From: Halichondria panicea
Lineage: Eukaryota; Porifera; Demospongiae; Suberitida; Halichondriidae
NCBI RefSeq assembly: GCF_963675165.1
Contig: NC_087387.1
Span: forward strand, 4,986,990-5,050,989
Direction: 5' to 3'
Length of the DNA stretch: 64,000 nt
Position 1 is the stretch's first letter. Each line of letters opens with the position of its first letter. Both the position numbers and the translations under genes were made by a program. Under the pieces are notes generated by a model. It worked only from the letters and a program-made list of their open reading frames with translations, was not told where the DNA came from and searched no databases. Below are positions 5,665-53,212 of this stretch, piece by piece.

Positions 5665-8600
5665 ATGAGAATGTCTTATAGAGTAGTACTGCTGGTTGTA
5701 ACTACCTTCTGTGGGTACCTCTGTTCTGTGAATGCATCCGGTAAGTTAAGTGTGCTAATAATTACAAATAATTATGATAAAATAAAATAAAAGAATGATA
5801 AATTATATCTACAACAGAAGAACATTGTTCATTGTAAATCAGGTCCACTTGAACACAAGGGCTGCTTTAACAAATTTTCAATTCTCAACTTCTGTAGCAT
5901 CTCTTTCGAGCAGTACTATCGTCGTGAATGAAGGAGACTCAGCTCAACTGTGTGTCAATATTGATGAGCCTCAAGATGTGACTGTACAGTTGCTAGTATC
6001 CATACTTACAACCACACTGAATGAAGGTACTTAGTTTTGCTATATAGAAACCATGTAGTCTATACTGTTTCAAATCATGCTGTGATTATTTCGTGCAGGC
6101 ACCGATTTTGACATATCCAGTAACGAGTTACAGTTTACTGTTGACGGGCCGACTCAGATATGTTTTGACATAGAAGCCTATCCTGATGATATTGTCGAGA
6201 ATGGGGAACTGTTTCAAATAAGTATCGGTGGGACGATCACTGTTGGAGCTATTGGTTCTACCCTCGTTACCATTAGCGATGCAAGCCGTAAGATGTGATG
6301 CATGCATGCAGTGTAGTTGCATTACATATATGTGTACTGTCGATATAATTCAGGTATCGATGTCAGCCTCACTCAGGAAAACTACGCAGCAGTGGAAGAG
6401 ACAGTGGATACTTCTGTAATGGTGTGTGCCATGATCGTTAGTGGAAGCATACAAAGACAAGTTACGGTCACACTCGATACAGTTGACATGGGAACAGCTT
6501 CTTGTAAGACACTATTTAATCACTGGAGTTATCTTCATATTGCACTTTCCCTTTGAATTCTCCCTCCACAGCTGCAGACGATTACATACCTTCAGGAGCT
6601 GTCTCAAAGACATTCAGCCCGATAGACGCCAGCGAGCCACAGTGCACAAATATTGCCATTCGAAGCGATGACATTATTGAAGAGGTTGAGACATTTATGG
6701 TCAGTTTAACAGCTGGTGTGGATGCTGTAAATGTCATCATTGGCGAAGCTACAGTCTCTATAACAGACAATGATGGTAAGTAGACATTAATACCCATAAT
6801 TATTGAACTATGGCATACCCCACTTCCTACTGTACAGTATAGCTCTTAACAGCCACTAACAAACAAGTTTGAACTCCATGGCAGGTTCCCAGATCCCAAT
6901 TAAATGAGTACAAAACAACCCCTTAAAAGATATCACCATACATTTTGTATATTTAAATACTTGCTAACGTGTCTATTAAACGGGATTTAACCTAATTTGT
7001 CAGATCTAGATACTAGATTACAATGCCATTCTTTAAAACAAACACTCCACTCTGTATTAAAGGTGTCAACTTGGCACTGTCCTCACCTTCGGTGGCCATT
7101 CCAGAGGGAGACAGTGGATTGACTGATGTTAATATCGATCTGACGGTGGCCTTAAATGGACTCACTCTGGACAGAGCCATCACAGTGTTGGCCAATACAG
7201 TAGATGTAACAGCAAGTGAGTTTGTCATATGAAATAATTATAGGCTAGGCAAGTAGATCATTTATGTGTCCGCTATAAAAAGTGATTCCACGGCATGTAT
7301 TAAACAGCAAATTTATACAACTATACAAAGTCACAAAATTGTTTTACAGCTGTTGGAAATGATGACTTTATTCAATTGGTCAACGAGCCATTCACGATAC
7401 CTGCCACGGCTGCTGATGGAGATAGTTTCACTTTCACTGCTCAAATTGTTGGTGACCTAGTGGAGGAGAACACAGAGCAGTACATAATTCGATTTACTGC
7501 AGAGAATGAGAATGACGCGTTCGAACTTAGTCAAGTATTTGTGAGGATACAAGATGATGGGGATGGTAAAAAGAATAATTATGCAGCTATAAGATTCACA
7601 TTATTTGATTACTCACAGTGCTATCTCTCTCATATATATTGGAGAAGTTTTAACAAACTATTTTACTCACTCACAATGCAGCTGTGAGAGATTGTGCAGC
7701 TCTTGCTGATCCCGCTAATGGTCAGGTGACTGTAAGCCCAGATACACTGCAAGATTCCATTGCTACCTACTCTTGCAATGTTGGATTTAATCTCAATGGA
7801 GGCGAGACTAGAACTTGTTTAAACTCGGGCTGGGGAGGAGAAGCGCCAACTTGCCAGGGTGAGGAAATTGATTATGTAGTTTGTCGGGCTTGCCTTTAAA
7901 GCACAGTACACTTGCTATCAGTATAATAATTGTATGCGTACACAATAAATCACAGCACATTAATTTACCAAAATAACTTGATCGTTTAGCACATACCTCA
8001 CTGAGCTGATACCTCTTTCCATGCAGTTGTCGACTGCGGAACTCTTACGGATCCACAGAACGGAATGATTCAAACATCCAACACTAACTACGAGGGTCTG
8101 GCTATCTACAGCTGTGTGTCTGGCTACGAGCTTGACACTGGTGCCGTCACTGTGACTCGGACTTGTCAGTTAAACAGCATGTGGTCTGGAACGGCTCCTC
8201 AGTGTGTCCGTAAGTTGATGACCAACGAATCCACAATTTTGTGTTTAGTTGTGTTGATCTACACAAAACTAAAATTAACACCTAAACACTAGCTGTGAAT
8301 GTATTAATCTCACATACACTCTCCCCTTTAATTTTTGTCTTATGGCTACCATTTTCTCGCTACATACAGGAGTAACTTGTCTATTCCTTACTGATCCAAC
8401 TAACGGACTTGTGCGATACCCCAACGGTGGAACTTCGTTTGGAGACACTGCAGAGTACGAATGTGACGCAGGTTATGACCTCACGGGAACTCCTGTGAGG
8501 ACCTGTCAGGCCAACAGGGAGTGGTCACTCACACCACCCTCTTGCACACGTAAGTATACACCCTAACATTGTCTAACGATTGATCAACCAGTTTGATCTA

Positions 8601-29860: not shown

Positions 29861-35997
<6,137 letters not shown>

Positions 35998-36533: not shown

Positions 36534-37095
36534 CTCTCCTACGGCCAGACAGCATCTTAGCAAAGTAAGTTCCAACCATGTCGTGATTATAATTATATAG
36601 AATGTGTCGGTCGCTTATACTTCTGCCTCAAGGAAGGAGGGATACGGTAAAGCTGACTGTGTGTGTGTGTGTGTCTGTACTGTGTGTGTGTTCCAGCTGT
36701 AACTGCTCAACGGTTGCAATGCGACAAAAACTAACAGTTTCTATAGGCTTCTAGCCACGTTCTCTTGGATTTTGATTCGTGGATTAGCAAACTAAAGCGC
36801 AGAAGCCACTAATCACTCCCAAAGGGTTACTATCCAGCTAAGAAGCTACTACACCTGGTCTATCTCACTTAGAAAATGCATTTTTGTGGGTACTACAGTG
36901 GTTTTCCTTACCTTTGCAGGCTATACTGCAAGAGCACTGCAACCACAATGTAGTAGATATAGTATTTTGGTTGGCTTCTGTTATGATTGTTAGTAACAAG
37001 CTAGCCTCGATTCCAGGCCGCATTAAAATACGGCCTGGTACCTATTGCAGGGGTGATAGTGCGCATGCGCTTCAAATTACCCAGAATATGGGTAA

Positions 37096-37315
37096 TCGCA
37101 TTAGTGTAGTTCGAAGAGGTTCGGAAGGGTCGAACCACAATGAACACCTGAAGAACATATTTTCAAAGTATTTGCTTGTTAATAAGTGTAGTTCGAAGAA
37201 GTTCGGAGGAGTCGAACCATAACGAACACCTGCTTGTCCATTAGTGTAGTTAGAAGAGGGAGCTACACTAATCGACAAGCAAACACGAGGCATTAGCACA
37301 GCGCCAGCTTGAACA
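37096..37315. repeat. TAGTTCGAAGAGGTTCGGAAGG repeat, subterminal
   Basis: Three imperfect units of TAGTTCGAAGAGGTTCGG followed by TCGAACCA and AACACCTG lie near the left end of the 5.8-kb element. The same units form the larger array at 40655-41490. Confidence 0.6.
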
Positions 37316-37327
37316 CTAGTTGATAGT

Positions 37328-38069
37328 TGGCTAAGCTATTTCGTAGTTGATAGTTGGCAAGCTATTTTGTAAGTTTAAACTATACAGCAAAATCCAGCAA
37401 ATCCGCCATAAAAAGTAACCAGACATTGTATAATCACGACAAGAACGCGAACCTGTTTTGTTGAGAGAGATGGTATAGTAGGTTGAGACGGTAGAGCTGG
37501 TAGGTTGAGACGGTAGAGCTGGTAGGTTGAGAGGGTAGAGCTGTAGGTTGAACTCTCGCTAACGGTAAGGTTGAGCTATAAGACGGTAAGGTAGAGCCAG
37601 TCTATATAGTAGTACTTCGGCCTCCAGTTTTGGTGAGTAGCTCACGAGGGCAGATCACGTGATAGCCTTCCTGTTATTATCCCCCACTACGTACTTCAGC
37701 TACCTGTACCAGCTGTAGTACGTAGTGGGGGATAATAACAGGAAGGCTATCACGTGATCTGCCCTCGTGAGCTACTCACCAAAACTGGAGGCGAAGTACG
37801 ACTATATAGACTGGCTCTACCTTACCGTCTTATAGCTCAACCTTACCGTTAGCGAGAGTTCAACCTACAGCTCTACCCTCTCAACCTACCAGCTCTACCG
37901 TCTCAACCTACTATGCCATCTCTCTCAACAAAACAGGTTTGCGTTCTTGTCGTGATTATACAATGTCTGGTTACTTTTTATGGCGGATTTGCTGCATTTT
38001 GCTGTATAGTTTAAACTTACGAAATAGCTTGCCAACTATCAACTACGAAATAGCTTAGCCAACTACCAA
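37328..38069. repeat. Large palindrome, arms about 350 bp, 23-nt spacer
   Basis: The left arm (37328-37694) and right arm (37718-38069) are near-perfect inverted copies around a 23-nt centre (37695-37717) flanked by CACTACGTAC and GTACGTAGTG. The left arm contains one extra 21-bp unit of the CTACCGTCTCAACC repeat. It lies about 520 bp upstream of the REase-kinase start and within the element. Such a structure could extrude as a cruciform or hairpin. Confidence 0.85.
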
Positions 38070-38275
38070 CTACGAAATAGCTAAGCCAACTATCAACTAC
38101 GAAATAGCTTGCCAACTATCAACTACGAAATAGCTTAGCGAACTACCTGCTACGAAATAGCTTAGCCAACTATCAACTACGAAATAGCTAAGCCAACTGC
38201 CTACTACGAAATAGCTAAGCCAACCCAACTACCTACTACGAAATAGCTAAGCCAACCGAACTACCTACTTCGAAT
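38020..38275 (+). repeat. 28-bp tandem array CTACGAAATAGCTTAGCCAA
   Basis: About nine imperfect units, which start in the right palindrome arm and continue beyond it. An inverted array of the same unit lies at 42105-42275, and one or two inverted units at 37320-37370. Confidence 0.75.
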
Positions 38276-38589
38276 GTCAACTACTAGTAGCTCTCAGGGC
38301 CACCGTAGTAGTGCCCTAGTCTCGTGAACCAGCCGCCCTCTCTTGGGGAGAGACCGTCTGGGCACTCTTTACACAAGTATCATGTGGTCTAGATAGGAGG
38401 CAGCAAATAATGAAAGTTTATGTGCGGTTGAGCATTGAGCAGTGATGTGGTAGGCAGTGAATGCGGATGTGGTTACGTAATACATTCCATTGTGCAGCCC
38501 AGAAGTCAAGAGCAGTCAGTCTAGCCTCTACTCACTTTCCTCCATCTCCCTTTCCTTCTCTCAACCAGTTCCGTGGAGCAAGTAGATCT

Positions 38590-40231
38590 ATGTCGATGCC
38601 GAAGAAACCGTTGTAAGTTGACCGTGTGCTCACATATGACCCTTTGATTTTGTTCTGTATTACTGTATCACCTCTTTTGCCTCTTTCTTTTCATAGGCAT
38701 TCCCACAATACTCGCTTGTCATCAGCAGTTGCACCTATACCATCCAGATCGTCTACCGCCATAGACGGGGGAAAATCTTCCTCAAGTTCAATTTCTAAAG
38801 CGATTGATCTGAAGTTGTATGGCTACTACCTGTTGGGGGGGGGGGGAAAAACAAGGTATTGAGATAAAAACCTACTCACTATGGGACATTTTCAAAGAGC
38901 TGAACTTGAAGAGTGTTGATCATAATCTTGAGCGTGTTGATTATATGATAGCCAACAGCATGTCAGTGTCAAAAGGATATAGCGACTCTGTAGGTAAAGT
39001 GTGCTTCGAAAAGATCTTAGAGGATTGTCGATTGAGCGGTGACTGGATGGTCCGGAAAGCCGTTGCTCTACCACTACCTGATTCTGACAATCAAGCCGAC
39101 AAGCTACCCGATATACAAATAGTAAAAAAATCAAACTTTAAGGAAATCTCACAGGTCGCAGAAATTCAATCCTCTCCAATGTTATGGACAGAGAACAAGT
39201 CTGTTCTAGTCGCGACGGACCTATTCAGGAATCTACGAGAAAATACAGAACTAGATTACGTTGAAGTATTTGCTTTACCAAATTTAACAAACAAGCAATG
39301 CATCACTTCAATAAAAGTCAGCATCAAAAGCCTGAAATTTCTGGTCACTCTCAAACGTTTTCCAGAAATCAAACAAGGTATTGAATACATGAAGTCCCAA
39401 ATTAAACTGAAGTGCAGTCAAGTTTTACCAATTACGTCGATTGTGCGCCACCTCGTAAAGCTGACCAAGATTGAGTTACAAAATGCTGCTGCTCAGGTTG
39501 CTTCTGAAGCTGGTGCTACTTTTGTGGAATATCAACCACCCAAGCAGCTGTATTCAACCTCTCACATTCTTTTTCTCTCCAAGAATACTGTGTACAAAGT
39601 AATTCATACCTCTGCTGGATTACGTTCAATTATGATAGTCCAAAAAGCATTCGGTAGAACAGCACCTACGCTGACTGTTAATGTCCAGACATGTTCAATT
39701 GAGCCGATGATTGTCGAGTACACCTATGTTCCGTACCATTGCTTTAGCAAGGAAGAAGCTCGATTGTGCTTCAAAGAGTTCATGCTTTGTGTGAAGGCCG
39801 CGCTTGATGAGCTGCATGGCATGAATATTGCGCACAACGATGTGCGAATGGAGAACGTTTTGTTTTCTTCAAATTTCACACCAGTTTTTATCGACGTAGA
39901 TAGGGCCTCGCTATCAGATCCAACCGAATTCGCACATGGCTTATTTAGAACCACAACACACAGCTGCATGTACAACCTCGACCACTCTACATGGAGAGAC
40001 GACGGTGCCAGGACTGACCTGTTCCAGCTGGGCTGGATGGCGGCCTGGATATTGAATACCAGCACCAGCTCTAGCTTGTACCACTCACGAGAATGGACAA
40101 CGGAACCAGATGAAATTCGAACCAACAAGTTCGTTGAGTCCCTGATCACGTCCGGGAAGTTTAAGAGTGAATTGTTGGAGAATTGCGTATCGGAAGTGAA
40201 GACAATTGAACAAGTGTTGTTAGCTCGTTAA
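38590..40231 (+). CDS. Crinkler-like REase/protein-kinase-like fusion, one frameshift in a G-run
   Basis: Exon 1 (38590-38612) begins MSMPKKP; exon 2 (38697-40231) continues in phase. In a 12-G run (about 38835-38846) the frame shifts; 11 Gs would give one 518-aa frame. Residues about 65-210 look like a PD-(D/E)XK-type nuclease domain: LPDIQIVKK with Asp at 39110-39112 and VAEIQSS with Glu at 39161-39163, an E-x-Q variant. The C-terminal half is kinase-like: VYKVIHT with a candidate beta-3 Lys, the catalytic loop HNDVRMENVL (39833 onward) in place of HRDxxxxN, FIDVDRA with two Asp in place of DFG, and a helix-F-like DLFQLGWMAAWIL. This pairing is known from Crinkler-type effectors and related transposon-borne proteins; a role in element mobility or host conflict is inference. 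The T-rich acceptor at 38566 suggests an upstream non-coding exon. Confidence 0.65.
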
Positions 40232-40654
40232 TTGTGTGATTATGCTCACTTTAATAGAGTCTCAAGTTGTAAATGATCCTTCTTGTATATATGGATGAAC
40301 AATTCAGTGTAGGACGTGGTAGGATGTATGATAGGGTACTTTAGGATGGATGGCTTAACAATCCAGTGTAGGACGAAGAATTAAGGTTGTAGTAGGATGG
40401 GGTAGGATGCACTATCCGTGTATGACGTGGTAGGATGTGTGATAATAGATTATTATTTTATTGATTCAGCTGCATACCAGCATCATATCAGCAGCGTCCC
40501 CTTTTTATGCACATTGTTTTGTGCCGTACAACACCTCCTCAAGAAAAGTATTAATGGGTGTAACACAATGGATGTATATCAACCGGTTCAGGATCCCGAG
40601 TTACATGTATGATAGACAACATTTTGATCGCGAATTACACTTTGTACAGGATTA

Positions 40655-41490
40655 GATTGAACCACACCGAACACCTGTACAACACCCTAACCAAGTGTTT
40701 GCCTGTACGACTCTTCCGAACCTCTTCAAACTATTGTACAGCATAAATAAAGAGTATCTTGCAAGTGTTTGGTGTGGTTCGATCAAGTTTGAAGAGATTC
40801 GAAAGAGACTTTGAACCACACCGAACTCTCGCAAAGTACTCCTGTACAGTAGATCGAAGAGGTTCAGAAGAGTCAAACCACATACAGTACAGTTTGATAA
40901 ATAGTCGAAGAGGTTAGGAGGAGTGAAACTACACTGTGCAAGAGTTTGAAGAGGTTCGAAAGAGTGTCCAGTAGTGTAGTTCGAAGAGGTTCGGAAGGTT
41001 TGAACCACAATGAACACTTGTAGAACACCCTAATCAAGTGTTGGCGTGTCCAGTAGTGTAATTCGAAGAGGTTCGGAAGGATCGAACCACACCGAACACC
41101 TGTAGAACATGCGTGTCCAGTAGTGTAGTTCGAAGAGGTTCGGAAGGATTGAACCACAATGAACACTTGTAGAACACCCTAATCAAGTGTTGGCGTAGTT
41201 AGAAGAGGTTCGGCACTTGGTGAGGGTGTTCTATAGGTGTTGGGTGTGGTTCGATCCCTCCGAACCTCTTCGAACTATGCTACTGGACTGGCAAACACAG
41301 TGTTCGGTGTGGTTCGATCCCTAAATCTCAGCACAAGCAAACACTTGGTGAGGGTGTTCTACAGGTGTTCGGTGTGGTTCGATTCTTCCGAACTTCTTCG
41401 AACTATACTACTGGAGATGCAAACACTTTGTGAAGGTGTTCTACAGGAGTTCGGTGTGGTTCGATTTTTCCGAACCTCTTCAAACTACAC
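40655..41490. repeat. Imperfect tandem array, partly inverted (GAACCACACCGAACACC unit)
   Basis: Units of about 70 bp contain TAGTTCGAAGAGGTTCGG, TCGAACCACA, AACACCTGTAGAACACCCT. To about 41215 the units run in one orientation, and after that in the other (GTGTTCGGTGTGGTTCGAT), so the whole block is itself a foldback. Confidence 0.7.
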
Positions 41491-41496
41491 TCATCA

Positions 41497-42103
41497 AGCG
41501 CGGCCTTCACACAAAGTATGAACTCTTTGAAGCACAATCGAGCTTCGTCCTTGCTAAAGCAATGGTACGGAACATAGTTGTACTTGACAACCATCGGCAC
41601 AAGTGAACATATCTGGACATTAACAGTCAGCGTAGGTGCTGTTCTACCGAATGCTTTTTGGACTATCAAAATTGAATCTTTTTCAGCAAGGGTATGAATT
41701 ACTTTGTACACAGTATTCTTGGAGAGAAAAAGAATGTGAGAGGTTGAATACAGCTGCTTGGGTGGTTGATATTCCACAAAAGTAGCACCAGCTTCAGCAG
41801 CATCTTCAGCAACAGCATTTTGTAACTCAATCTTGGTCAGCTTTACGAGGTGGCGCACAATCGACGTAATTGGTAAAACTTGACTGCACTTCAGTTTAAT
41901 TTGGGACTTCATGTATAAAATACCTGGTTTGATTTCTGGAAAACGTTTGAGAGTGATCAGAAATGCCATGTCTTTGATGCTGACTTTTATTAAAGTGATG
42001 CATTGCTTGTTTGTTAAATTTGGTAAAGCAAATACTTCAACGTAATCTAGTTCTGTATTTTCTCGTAGATTCCTGAATAGGTCTGTCGCGACTAGAACAG
42101 ACT
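41497..42103 (-). pseudogene. Truncated inverted copy of the REase-kinase gene
   Basis: The minus strand reads a near-identical copy of the middle of the 38.6-40.2-kb gene, from LVATDLFRNLRENTE through KRFPEIK, ITSIVRHLVKLTK and FLSKNTVYKVIHT to VKAALDE. It lacks the N-terminal start, the first catalytic Asp/Glu region and the whole kinase catalytic loop, and is cut on both sides by tandem arrays. It differs by scattered substitutions. Confidence 0.85.
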
Positions 42104-42104
42104 T

Positions 42105-42275
42105 AGTAGGTAGTTGGGTTGGCTTAGCTATTTCGTAGTAGGCAGTTGGCTTAGCTATTTCGTAGTTGATAGTTGGCTAAGCTATTTCGTAGCAGGTAGT
42201 TGGCTTAGCTATTTCGTAGTTGATAGTTGGCTAAGCTATTTCGTAGTTGATAGTTGGCTTAGCTATTTCGTAGTT
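42105..42275 (-). repeat. Inverted copy of the 28-bp tandem array
   Basis: About six units of CTATTTCGTAGTTGATAGTTGGCTAAG-type sequence, the complement of the array at 38020-38275, abut the truncated gene copy. Confidence 0.75.
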
Positions 42276-42792
42276 ATCGTACTACGAACGTAAAACCTTA
42301 GTAAATTACACAGGAAATTAGTCCGTTTACTAAGAATATGTTCCGTAATACTTTATCTCTATGACTGAGCTCTGTAAAGCTGTGGCTTATGCCGTCTATT
42401 GTGTTGGTCTAGAAGGCTTGAACACTAGTTTTAAGACAGAAGAGGCTCTCATCTACGTCTAGGATGGTCCTATAGCCGGGTTGTCTTCGCAAGTAGCAGT
42501 TTGAGGCACCATACACTTCCCATAGCCTGTACAGATCCAAGGTAAGACATCCTGACCATACAACCGTCATAGAGGTAGATGAGAGCCTCTTCTGGCTTCA
42601 GACTAGTGTGAAAGCCTTCTGGAACAACGCAATAGAGAGCTAAGCTGATGTACAAAGATAGAAAATAGATGAGAGAAAGAAAAAGGGGATTCCCCAGATT
42701 TTGGAGAATAAACTAACGCATGCGCACTATCACCCCTGCAATAGGTACCAGGCCGTATTTTAATCGGCCTGGAATCGAGGCTAGTAACAAGC

Positions 42793-51414: not shown

Positions 51415-53212
51415 GGTGATGTGAGCGGGGTTATATGGCTACTGGCGATACCTCGAGAAAAAAAAAAGCGAGATGAAGGCCGTACCTCAAAGGTGTCTTG
51501 GAAACCGGCCGAATGAAACGAATGAACGTCCTTTTGAAAAGGGGAAAACACAAAACATACACTAATTCTATACATTAATTACAAACGTTCTTGAAAACAA
51601 ACACTAATTGATTGTATTCCTGCGTTGTTATTGATGCTCACTTATCACTCCCACTCAGTAGCTTGTCACTAGCTCTCGCTTGTTGTTTTGCAATTATGTT
51701 GTCAATTATATAATGGTCATGCACATAACTTACAAAATGAGTGCAAGCGTGCGCTATAGCTTGCTAATGCCTCTCAACACTATAGTAGAGGTATATAAAT
51801 AATTTGCATTTCAAATTGAGTTTTTCATTATAAATGGGTTGTTTTTACAATAGGATACCAATCATGTATGTTAACAACTGTGGACCATCTGCCTTATAAT
51901 TATGGTCAGATGGTTTCGGCCTTATTGGGCCTCATCAGCACAGTGCAGTTGCATGGTATGATTATGCAATAGTTAGACACTGTTTAGGAAGTTTCTGCAT
52001 GATTTAGAAGCCCAAAGGGCTGGTCGTATTATCTCGAACGCAGTGCCCTGAGGACTTCTAAATCACGTGGAAACTTCCTAAACAGTGTCTAAGCATTTTA
52101 GATCATAGCAACCATGAGTATTTAGTCAATTAGATTTGAATGTTCTTATCTCTACATGATTTTCTAAGTGAAGTATATACATGATTTTCTAAGTAAGTAT
52201 ATACATGATTTTCTAAGTTGGATAGAACACTTAATTCCTTTAGCCAATCAAATTGCAGTATTTATGGCAAACATGATGGTGATGTGAGCGGGGTTATATG
52301 GCTACTGGCGATACCTCGAAAAAAAAAAAGCGAGATGAAGGCCGTACCTCAAAGGTGTCTTGGAAACCGGCCGAATGAACGTCTTTTGAAAAGGGGAAAA
52401 CAAAACATACACTAGCTAATTCTATACATTAATTACAAACGCTCTTGAAAACAAACACTAATTGATTGTATTCCTGCGTTGTTATTGATGCTCACTTATC
52501 ACTCCCACTCAGTAGCTTGTCACTAGCTCTCGCTTGTTGTTTTGCAATTATGTTGTCAAATTATATAATGGTCATGCACATAACTTACATGAGTGTTGCA
52601 AGCGTGCGCTATAGCTTGCTAATGCCTCTCAACACTATAGTAGAGGTAAATAATTTGCATTTCAAATTGAGTTTTTCAGTTGTTTTTACAATAGGATGCC
52701 AATCATGTATGTTAACAACTGTGGACCATCTGCCTTATAATTATGGTCAGATGGTTTCGGCCTTATTGGGCCTCATCAGCACAGTGCAGTTGCATGGTAT
52801 GATTTAGCCTCGGTCCCAGGCCGATTTTTTTTTAATAGAACAAAGTTGAAAAATACGCGACCTAGCGTTCAATTGGAGACAGATCGGCCTGGAGTCGAGG
52901 CTAGGTATGATTATGCAATAGTTAGACACTGTTTAGGAAGTTTCTGCATGATTTAGAAGCCCAAAGGGCTGGTCGTAGTATCTCGAACGCAGTGCCCTGA
53001 GGACTTCTAAATCACGTGGAAACTTCCTAAACAGTGTCTAAGCATTTTAGATCATAGCAACCATGGGTATTAAATTTTAGCCAATCAGATTTGAATGTTC
53101 TTATCTCTACATGATTTTCTAAGTGAAGTATATACATGATTTTCTAAGTTGGATAGAACACTTAATTCCTTTAGCCAATCAAATTGCAGTATTTATGACA
53201 AACATGATCTAA
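51415..53212 (+). repeat. Tandem duplication, 863-bp unit
   Basis: Unit A (51415-52277) is followed directly by unit B (52278-53212), both starting GGTGATGTGAGCGGGGTTAT. They differ by small indels and substitutions, and unit B carries a 99-bp insertion (52805-52903 plus its 9-bp duplication). Each unit holds a palindromic GTTAGACACTGTTT MITE (51972-52093 and 52922-53043). No gene is supported. Confidence 0.85.
52805..52903. mobile_element. 99-bp MITE, TAGCCTCG ends, 9-bp target duplication
   Basis: The ends TAGCCTCGGTCCCAGGCCG and CGGCCTGGAGTCGAGGCTA are 19-bp inverted repeats with two mismatches, matching the ends of the 37002-42783 element. GGTATGATT flanks it on both sides (52796-52804 and 52904-52912). 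The paralogous unit A (about 51955) has the single uninterrupted GGTATGATT, the empty site. Confidence 0.9.

Follow-up and report, generated by a model that had tools for sequence, protein, structure and literature searches.

A 601-bp MITE interrupted by a mosaic insert with a REase-like/kinase gene in Halichondria panicea

The 64,000-nucleotide stretch of Halichondria panicea DNA analyzed here (the window; C11:4986990-5050989 of a 131-Mb host assembly in 39 contigs) contains, at 37002-42783, a 5.78-kb segment with inverted ends and an internal gene that combines a putative restriction endonuclease (REase)-like region with a kinase-like region. The original prediction described this segment as one Mutator-like element carrying the gene. 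The segment is not one element, but a 601-bp miniature inverted-repeat transposable element (MITE) interrupted by a 5,177-bp insert. With high probability, the insert is a mosaic that broke into the MITE, the gene has spread by duplication and rearrangement of its neighborhood rather than by the MITE ends, and its family is of a conflict type. This account builds on direct observation of the MITE family and its copies, the interruption, the composition of the mosaic, the gene family, and the substitution excess in that family.

Interruption of the MITE

The ends of the segment, 37002-37069 and 42717-42783, align as inverted repeats (68/67 bp) with a single one-base gap, and an end-pair scan places the sequence GTAACAAGC on both flanks as a perfect 9-bp target-site duplication (36993-37001 and 42784-42792), as had been predicted. 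When L045, a 601-bp copy from elsewhere in the genome, is aligned to the window, it falls into two pieces, MITE 1-97 at 37002-37098 (99%) and MITE 91-601 at 42273-42783 (99.8%). The left 97 bp, which lie on the plus strand and include the terminal inverted repeat (TIR) 37002-37069, are identical over their 97 bp (100%) to copies L039, L040, L041, L043, and L044, and 98.97% identical to L045. The right remainder (MITE 94-601; 42276-42783, plus strand), with the TIR 42717-42783, matches L045 at 99.8% along the 511 bp that begin at 42273. The left 97-bp and right 511-bp halves are contiguous in L039, L040, L041, and L043-L046. The left break falls just after GGGTAATCG and the MITE picks up again at ATCGTACTACG, so that ATCG (MITE 94-97) is repeated at 42276-42279 and alignment to the MITE copies defines the extra DNA at MITE position 97 as 37099-42275, 5,177 bp.

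The 19-mer CCCAGAATATGGGTAATCG, which runs up to the break, has 95 exact copies in the genome, 90 of which continue with T, the next base of the MITE. The five that do not are the window (C), L042 (A), and three copies with G; this count covers one base, and the three G copies are known by that base alone. L042 holds the left 97 bp of the MITE, lacks the right end and continues into host genes; its locus encodes immunoglobulin-like and EGF domains. The insert was also considered as a transposon in its own right and rejected: neither of its ends is an inverted copy of the other, and the repeated ATCG measures just 4 bp. Nor, judged by eye, does the block shared by the close gene copies L029 and L030 stop at clean ends.

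The MITE Family and Its Relation to Mutator

The MITE end sequence is TAGCCTCGATTCC. Its exact 19-bp end, TAGCCTCGATTCCAGGCCG, occurs 643 + 589 = 1,232 times in the genome, and 2,539 + 2,408 = 4,947 times with up to one mismatch, in counts that pool all element length classes; the reversed control gave 0 at both settings. The ends are therefore not a product of chance. A genome search with the left 99 bp scored at least 40 places, of 736 first-look candidates, and ten of the 39 places outside the window were read (L039-L048). Both ends are present in nine of them (all except L042), at lengths of 568-606 bp that leave no room for the gene, which largely contradicts the notion of a bounded element carrying it. 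A perfect 9-bp duplication flanks six of these nine copies, and the flanking 9-mers agree at 8/9 positions in L048 and 4/9 in L047; L043 has an altered right end that the end scan left unpaired.

Across the 20 fetched 10-kb loci and the window, the 9-bp duplication is perfect (9/9) in 13 of the 19 nearest end pairs, and the six imperfect pairs comprise one at 8/9, one at 7/9, and four at 4/9 or less. Pairing each flank with the wrong partner, as a control, gave a 9/9 match in 1 of 342 cases. The predicted boundaries were thus right, but they are those of the MITE. The ends bound a short (601 bp), non-coding, non-autonomous, high-copy element and not a gene-sized transposon.

Elements with perfect 9-bp duplications range from 35 bp upward. 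The window itself holds a second member of the end family, a 99-bp element at 52805-52903 with the perfect duplication GGTATGATT. Further members with perfect 9-bp duplications are present in L035 (2078-2112, 35 bp; 589-634, 46 bp; 1210-1315, 106 bp) and L037 (9383-9483, 101 bp), and the 35-bp member consists of hardly more than both ends.

Mutator-like elements (MULEs) make target-site duplications of 8-10 bp, usually 9 bp. The window MITE shares with Mutator-superfamily MITEs the 9-bp duplication, long inverted ends, and many short gene-free copies, and differs from them in that no MULE transposase is tied to its ends and that its family includes members, down to 35 bp, that are nearly just ends. 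The MULE transposase domain PF10551 has 31 matches in the genome; at the five of these places that lie on C1 up to 9.88 Mb, no exact 19-mer end was found within 20 kb. The predicted Mutator-like identity therefore stands as far as the duplication and the long TIRs go, and lacks a linked transposase. On the basis of the 9-bp duplication, Mutator membership is likely; in kind the MITE is ordinary, and its copies are very abundant.

The REase-Like/Kinase Gene and Its Loci

Open frames and comparison between copies place the gene at 38590-40231 on the plus strand, with exon 1 at 38590-38612, an intron at 38613-38696 (GTAAGT...TAG), and exon 2 at 38697-40231. The short first exon, the GTAAGT donor, and the TAG acceptor are common to the window, L029, and L030. 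The G run at 38835-38846 has 12 G in the window and 11 in L029 and L030, and because of this additional G the frame downstream of the run is offset from the upstream frame of exon 2. Either a true difference between the copies or an error in sequencing could account for the additional G.

A genome search with the protein of the window gene kept 20 of 28 candidates as matches. Two are close full copies, L029 (95%; C11:3.05 Mb) and L030 (92%; C6:7.33 Mb); L031, L032, L034, and L035 have 30-39% identity and open frames of 478-495 amino acids, and the remaining matches are fragments. The gene is a member of a small spliced host family. Besides the window, ten gene loci (L029-L038) were read over 10 kb each and scanned for MITE ends with up to five mismatches. 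Nine, including those of both close full copies, have no suitably oriented end pair around the gene within these limits, which speaks against the suggestion that the gene spread through these ends; the exception is L037, discussed below. L034, L035, and L037 have separate short elements of the end family next to the gene. As far as the loci were read, the MITE ends and the gene are mostly independent, with L037 leaving room for capture. About 2 kb from the family member in L035 lies a fragment of a piggyBac-type transposase (7976-8482; DDE_Tnp_1_7, E 6.3e-22).

The kinase-like region spans residues 318-415 (39770-40063, plus strand) in Pfam matches and alignment, with HNDVRMEN at residues 339-346 and DVDR at residues 359-362. 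The window protein matches Pfam Pkinase at E 5.3e-5, under Pfam's own cut-off; all seven aligned members match this model, the best at E 2.1e-8. K260, HxD-R-EN, and DxD-R are invariant in the seven, and the closest solved-structure match of the kinase half is ULK3 (7.4e-7). The N-terminal half has the motif PD...(E/Q)-x-Q-S-S, which in the seven-member alignment places a PD-(D/E)XK-like region at 39107-39175 (plus strand; PD at residues 97-98, E-I-Q-S-S at residues 115-119). PD is invariant in the seven members, the glutamate is kept in six and is glutamine in L030, and the lysine of an active PD-(D/E)XK motif is glutamine in all seven. Weak profile matches to HSDR_N_2 (E 0.0016 in one member, 0.29 in another), mREase_IV (0.0018 in one member), and SspH (0.015 in the window) agree with an REase-like fold, short of proof; if the fold is REase-like, catalysis may be altered or lost. 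An AlphaFold2 model of the window frame from 38819 had a mean predicted local distance difference test score of 34.1 and was unusable. Of the predicted REase-kinase fusion, the kinase half is thus borne out, and the nuclease half in part, by the motif and weak profile matches.

Among the Pfam matches of all seven members, no Crinkler model appears at E<=1. The gene is therefore not filed as a Crinkler, which would carry an N-terminal header, for instance of the Ubl/LFLAK type, and of the suggested Crinkler-type likeness there remain the kinase and, by motif and weak matches, the REase-like part. Scans for prokaryotic or viral relatives, limited to patterns from the seven-member alignment, gave 45 and 49 pattern matches, none of which was confirmed. 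In Crinkler-RHS-type (CR) proteins, as described in section 11 of PMC5289972, REase plus kinase was found in about one-sixth of C-termini (Zhang et al., 2016), and the nuclease of this class is thought to be toxic and the kinase regulatory (PMC5289972). By its sequence, the host family resembles this REase-plus-kinase class in that a nuclease-like domain precedes a kinase domain, and differs in the lack of a Crinkler model match, the glutamine in place of the motif lysine, and a short N-terminus.

Composition of the Mosaic Insert

The insert begins with a block of TTCGAAGAGG-type repeat units (37099-37232, plus strand; nhmmer units 37099-37178 and 37184-37232). Self-alignment reveals a palindrome at 37287-38072, with arms at 37317-37521/37868-38072 (97%) and 37620-37701/37711-37792 (99%), and both of its sides match sequence from upstream in the L029 gene locus. 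A 27-bp minisatellite found by repeat analysis (38018-38256, plus strand) lies 5′ of the gene. Downstream of the gene, nhmmer detects a TTCGAAGAGG-type array with units in both orientations (40642-41492), and a 161-bp stretch over the 40635 junction, which includes the start of this array, recurs at 100% identity at C12:2598063. An inverted partial gene copy of 615 bp follows (41490-42104, minus strand), which aligns to 39197-39811 at 95%, and then an inverted 27-bp minisatellite (42118-42275, minus strand; repeat analysis). Pieces of the insert are 99.5%, 92.3%, 96.0%, 95.8%, and 100% identical to the L029 locus, with 42104-42275 corresponding at 100% to L029 4241-4412. The 42104 junction, between the inverted gene piece and the minisatellite, has a full-length match in the window only, and its two sides are found apart elsewhere.

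Gene fragments in L033, L036, L029, and L030 adjoin repeat arrays of the TTCGAAGAGG, GTAGGATG, and CTACGAAATAGC types at abrupt joints. Rfam has no match within the 64-kb window. A long CA/TG dinucleotide repeat at about 29944-30823 of the window gives rise to spurious long open frames.

Unequal Substitution Among Close Copies

The window gene was compared with L029 and L030 by substitutions only, a 17-base intron indel being uncounted, and the non-coding comparison ends at 40635, the limit of the shared 3′ end. Window and L029 differ at 32/1557 coding and 1/811 non-coding positions (Fisher p 2e-5), window and L030 at 54/1551 and 3/788 (p 3e-7), and L029 and L030 at 41/1569 and 4/836 (p 1e-4). 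Further downstream, L029 and L030 have 2 mismatches in 683 bases. The ratios of synonymous to nonsynonymous changes are 0:25 (window-L029), 3.4:43.6 (window-L030), and 3.5:38.5 (L029-L030), against an expected synonymous share of 23-29% (kappa 1-4); P is 1e-4 to 0.02 for the three close pairs. When changes within 10 bp are merged into clusters, 19 of 19, 23 of 23, and 21 of 22 of these affect the amino-acid sequence. The changes concentrate at window residues 171-173, 264-269, and 291-304, and the inverted 615-bp piece shows a like excess when compared with L029 (2 synonymous to 24 nonsynonymous). L036 gave too few substitutions for such a test, and the L033 fragment, whose frame has 11 stops, allowed no usable codon comparison.

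The stronger argument for selection is that the exon itself almost lacks synonymous changes. The excess of amino-acid change is a sign of diversifying selection, and the family probably encodes a conflict-type protein under such selection.

Origin of the Composite

A 601-bp MITE of the abundant 9-bp-duplication family would have landed at the window site, most likely mobilized in trans by a Mutator-type transposase. A 5.2-kb mosaic would then have broken this copy at position 97, bringing one member of the REase-like/kinase family together with part of a second member in reverse orientation and repeat arrays of kinds found beside the gene at other loci as well. The gene itself would spread through duplication and rearrangement of its repeat-rich surroundings, probably by templated repair, and in the protein the kinase domain may regulate the nuclease-like domain.

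A different history is offered by capture. In plants, Pack-MULEs enclose host gene fragments between MULE-type ends and transpose together with them. The window likewise has host gene fragments enclosed by MULE-type ends; a mobile MITE could thus have taken up the fragments by templated fill-in and then transposed as a 5.8-kb unit. The composite as a whole does have both ends complete and lies within a 9-bp duplication that is perfect, the interior is a patchwork with similarities to L029 of 99.5%, 100%, 96%, and 95.8%, and in L037 oriented ends surround another family member. Yet the composite turned up in no further copy, the 42104 junction is whole in the window only, the nine two-ended close copies of the MITE carry nothing, and the 9-mers that flank the L037 pair match at 3/9. 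The window also differs from Pack-MULEs in that its composite is single-copy, has its interior joined to a known MITE at a single breakpoint, and is known from the sequence of one site. Capture is considered unlikely. That the assembly joined unrelated repeats inside a MITE is very improbable: arrays and long inverted repeats do pose problems for assembly, and the copies disagree by one base in the length of the G run, but the assembly has 39 contigs over 131 Mb and the stretch across the 40635 junction recurs intact on another contig (C12:2598063). Next to no probability attaches to the idea, also raised by the original prediction, of a selfish element that uses the fusion gene for its own mobilization. 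It draws on the gene being the sole long open frame that the ends enclose and on the occurrence of restriction-type nucleases in some transposons, a context in which section 11 of PMC5289972 also discusses CR proteins; against it stand about 1,232 exact ends versus 20 gene matches in the genome, the absence of such ends from the 10 kb read at L029 and L030, and the motif lysine replaced by glutamine in 7/7 members.

Several observations weigh against an interrupted MITE with a gene that spreads independently under selection. In L037, a distant relative of the gene, riddled with stops, lies between inverted ends that are separated by 4,419 bp. No transposase is linked to the MITE ends. At position 297 of the reverse complement of L042, the left end of the MITE halts at the same base (MITE 97) as in the window; a small hairpin in the MITE adjoins the break and makes it a possible hot spot, a shared cause of the two breaks being the alternative. 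The composite is a single copy among the loci read, and its intact ends and duplication are compatible with insertion before or after the landing of the MITE. The substitution excess comes from three related copies, in comparisons that share sequences and by a test chosen post hoc; separately homogenized flanks could add to the contrast between coding and non-coding sequence; and dN/dS shows no excess in the more diverged pairs (L031/L032, 0.50; L034/L035, 0.85).

Implications

The interrupted MITE illustrates that perfect ends and a perfect target-site duplication around a gene need not make the gene the cargo of that element. Two items are open to testing: a MITE family with 9-bp duplications that shrinks to members of 35-106 bp, and an animal REase-like/kinase family in which intron and flanks are kept among close copies while the protein changes. 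The latter would put genes of this kind in an arms race within an animal, and not just among the effectors of oomycetes and fungi.

A bolder proposal is that these genes form a fast-evolving animal conflict system (for instance a toxin, a self-recognition protein, or an anti-element protein) with selection on discrete patches of the protein, and that the reversed 615-bp piece in the window is a source of hairpin RNA that silences the family. In Drosophila simulans, hairpin-RNA loci of the Dox/Nmy system silence selfish genes. There, as in the window, a gene of a fast-changing family has an inverted partial copy nearby; the window shares this geometry alone, and the combined proposal seems quite improbable.

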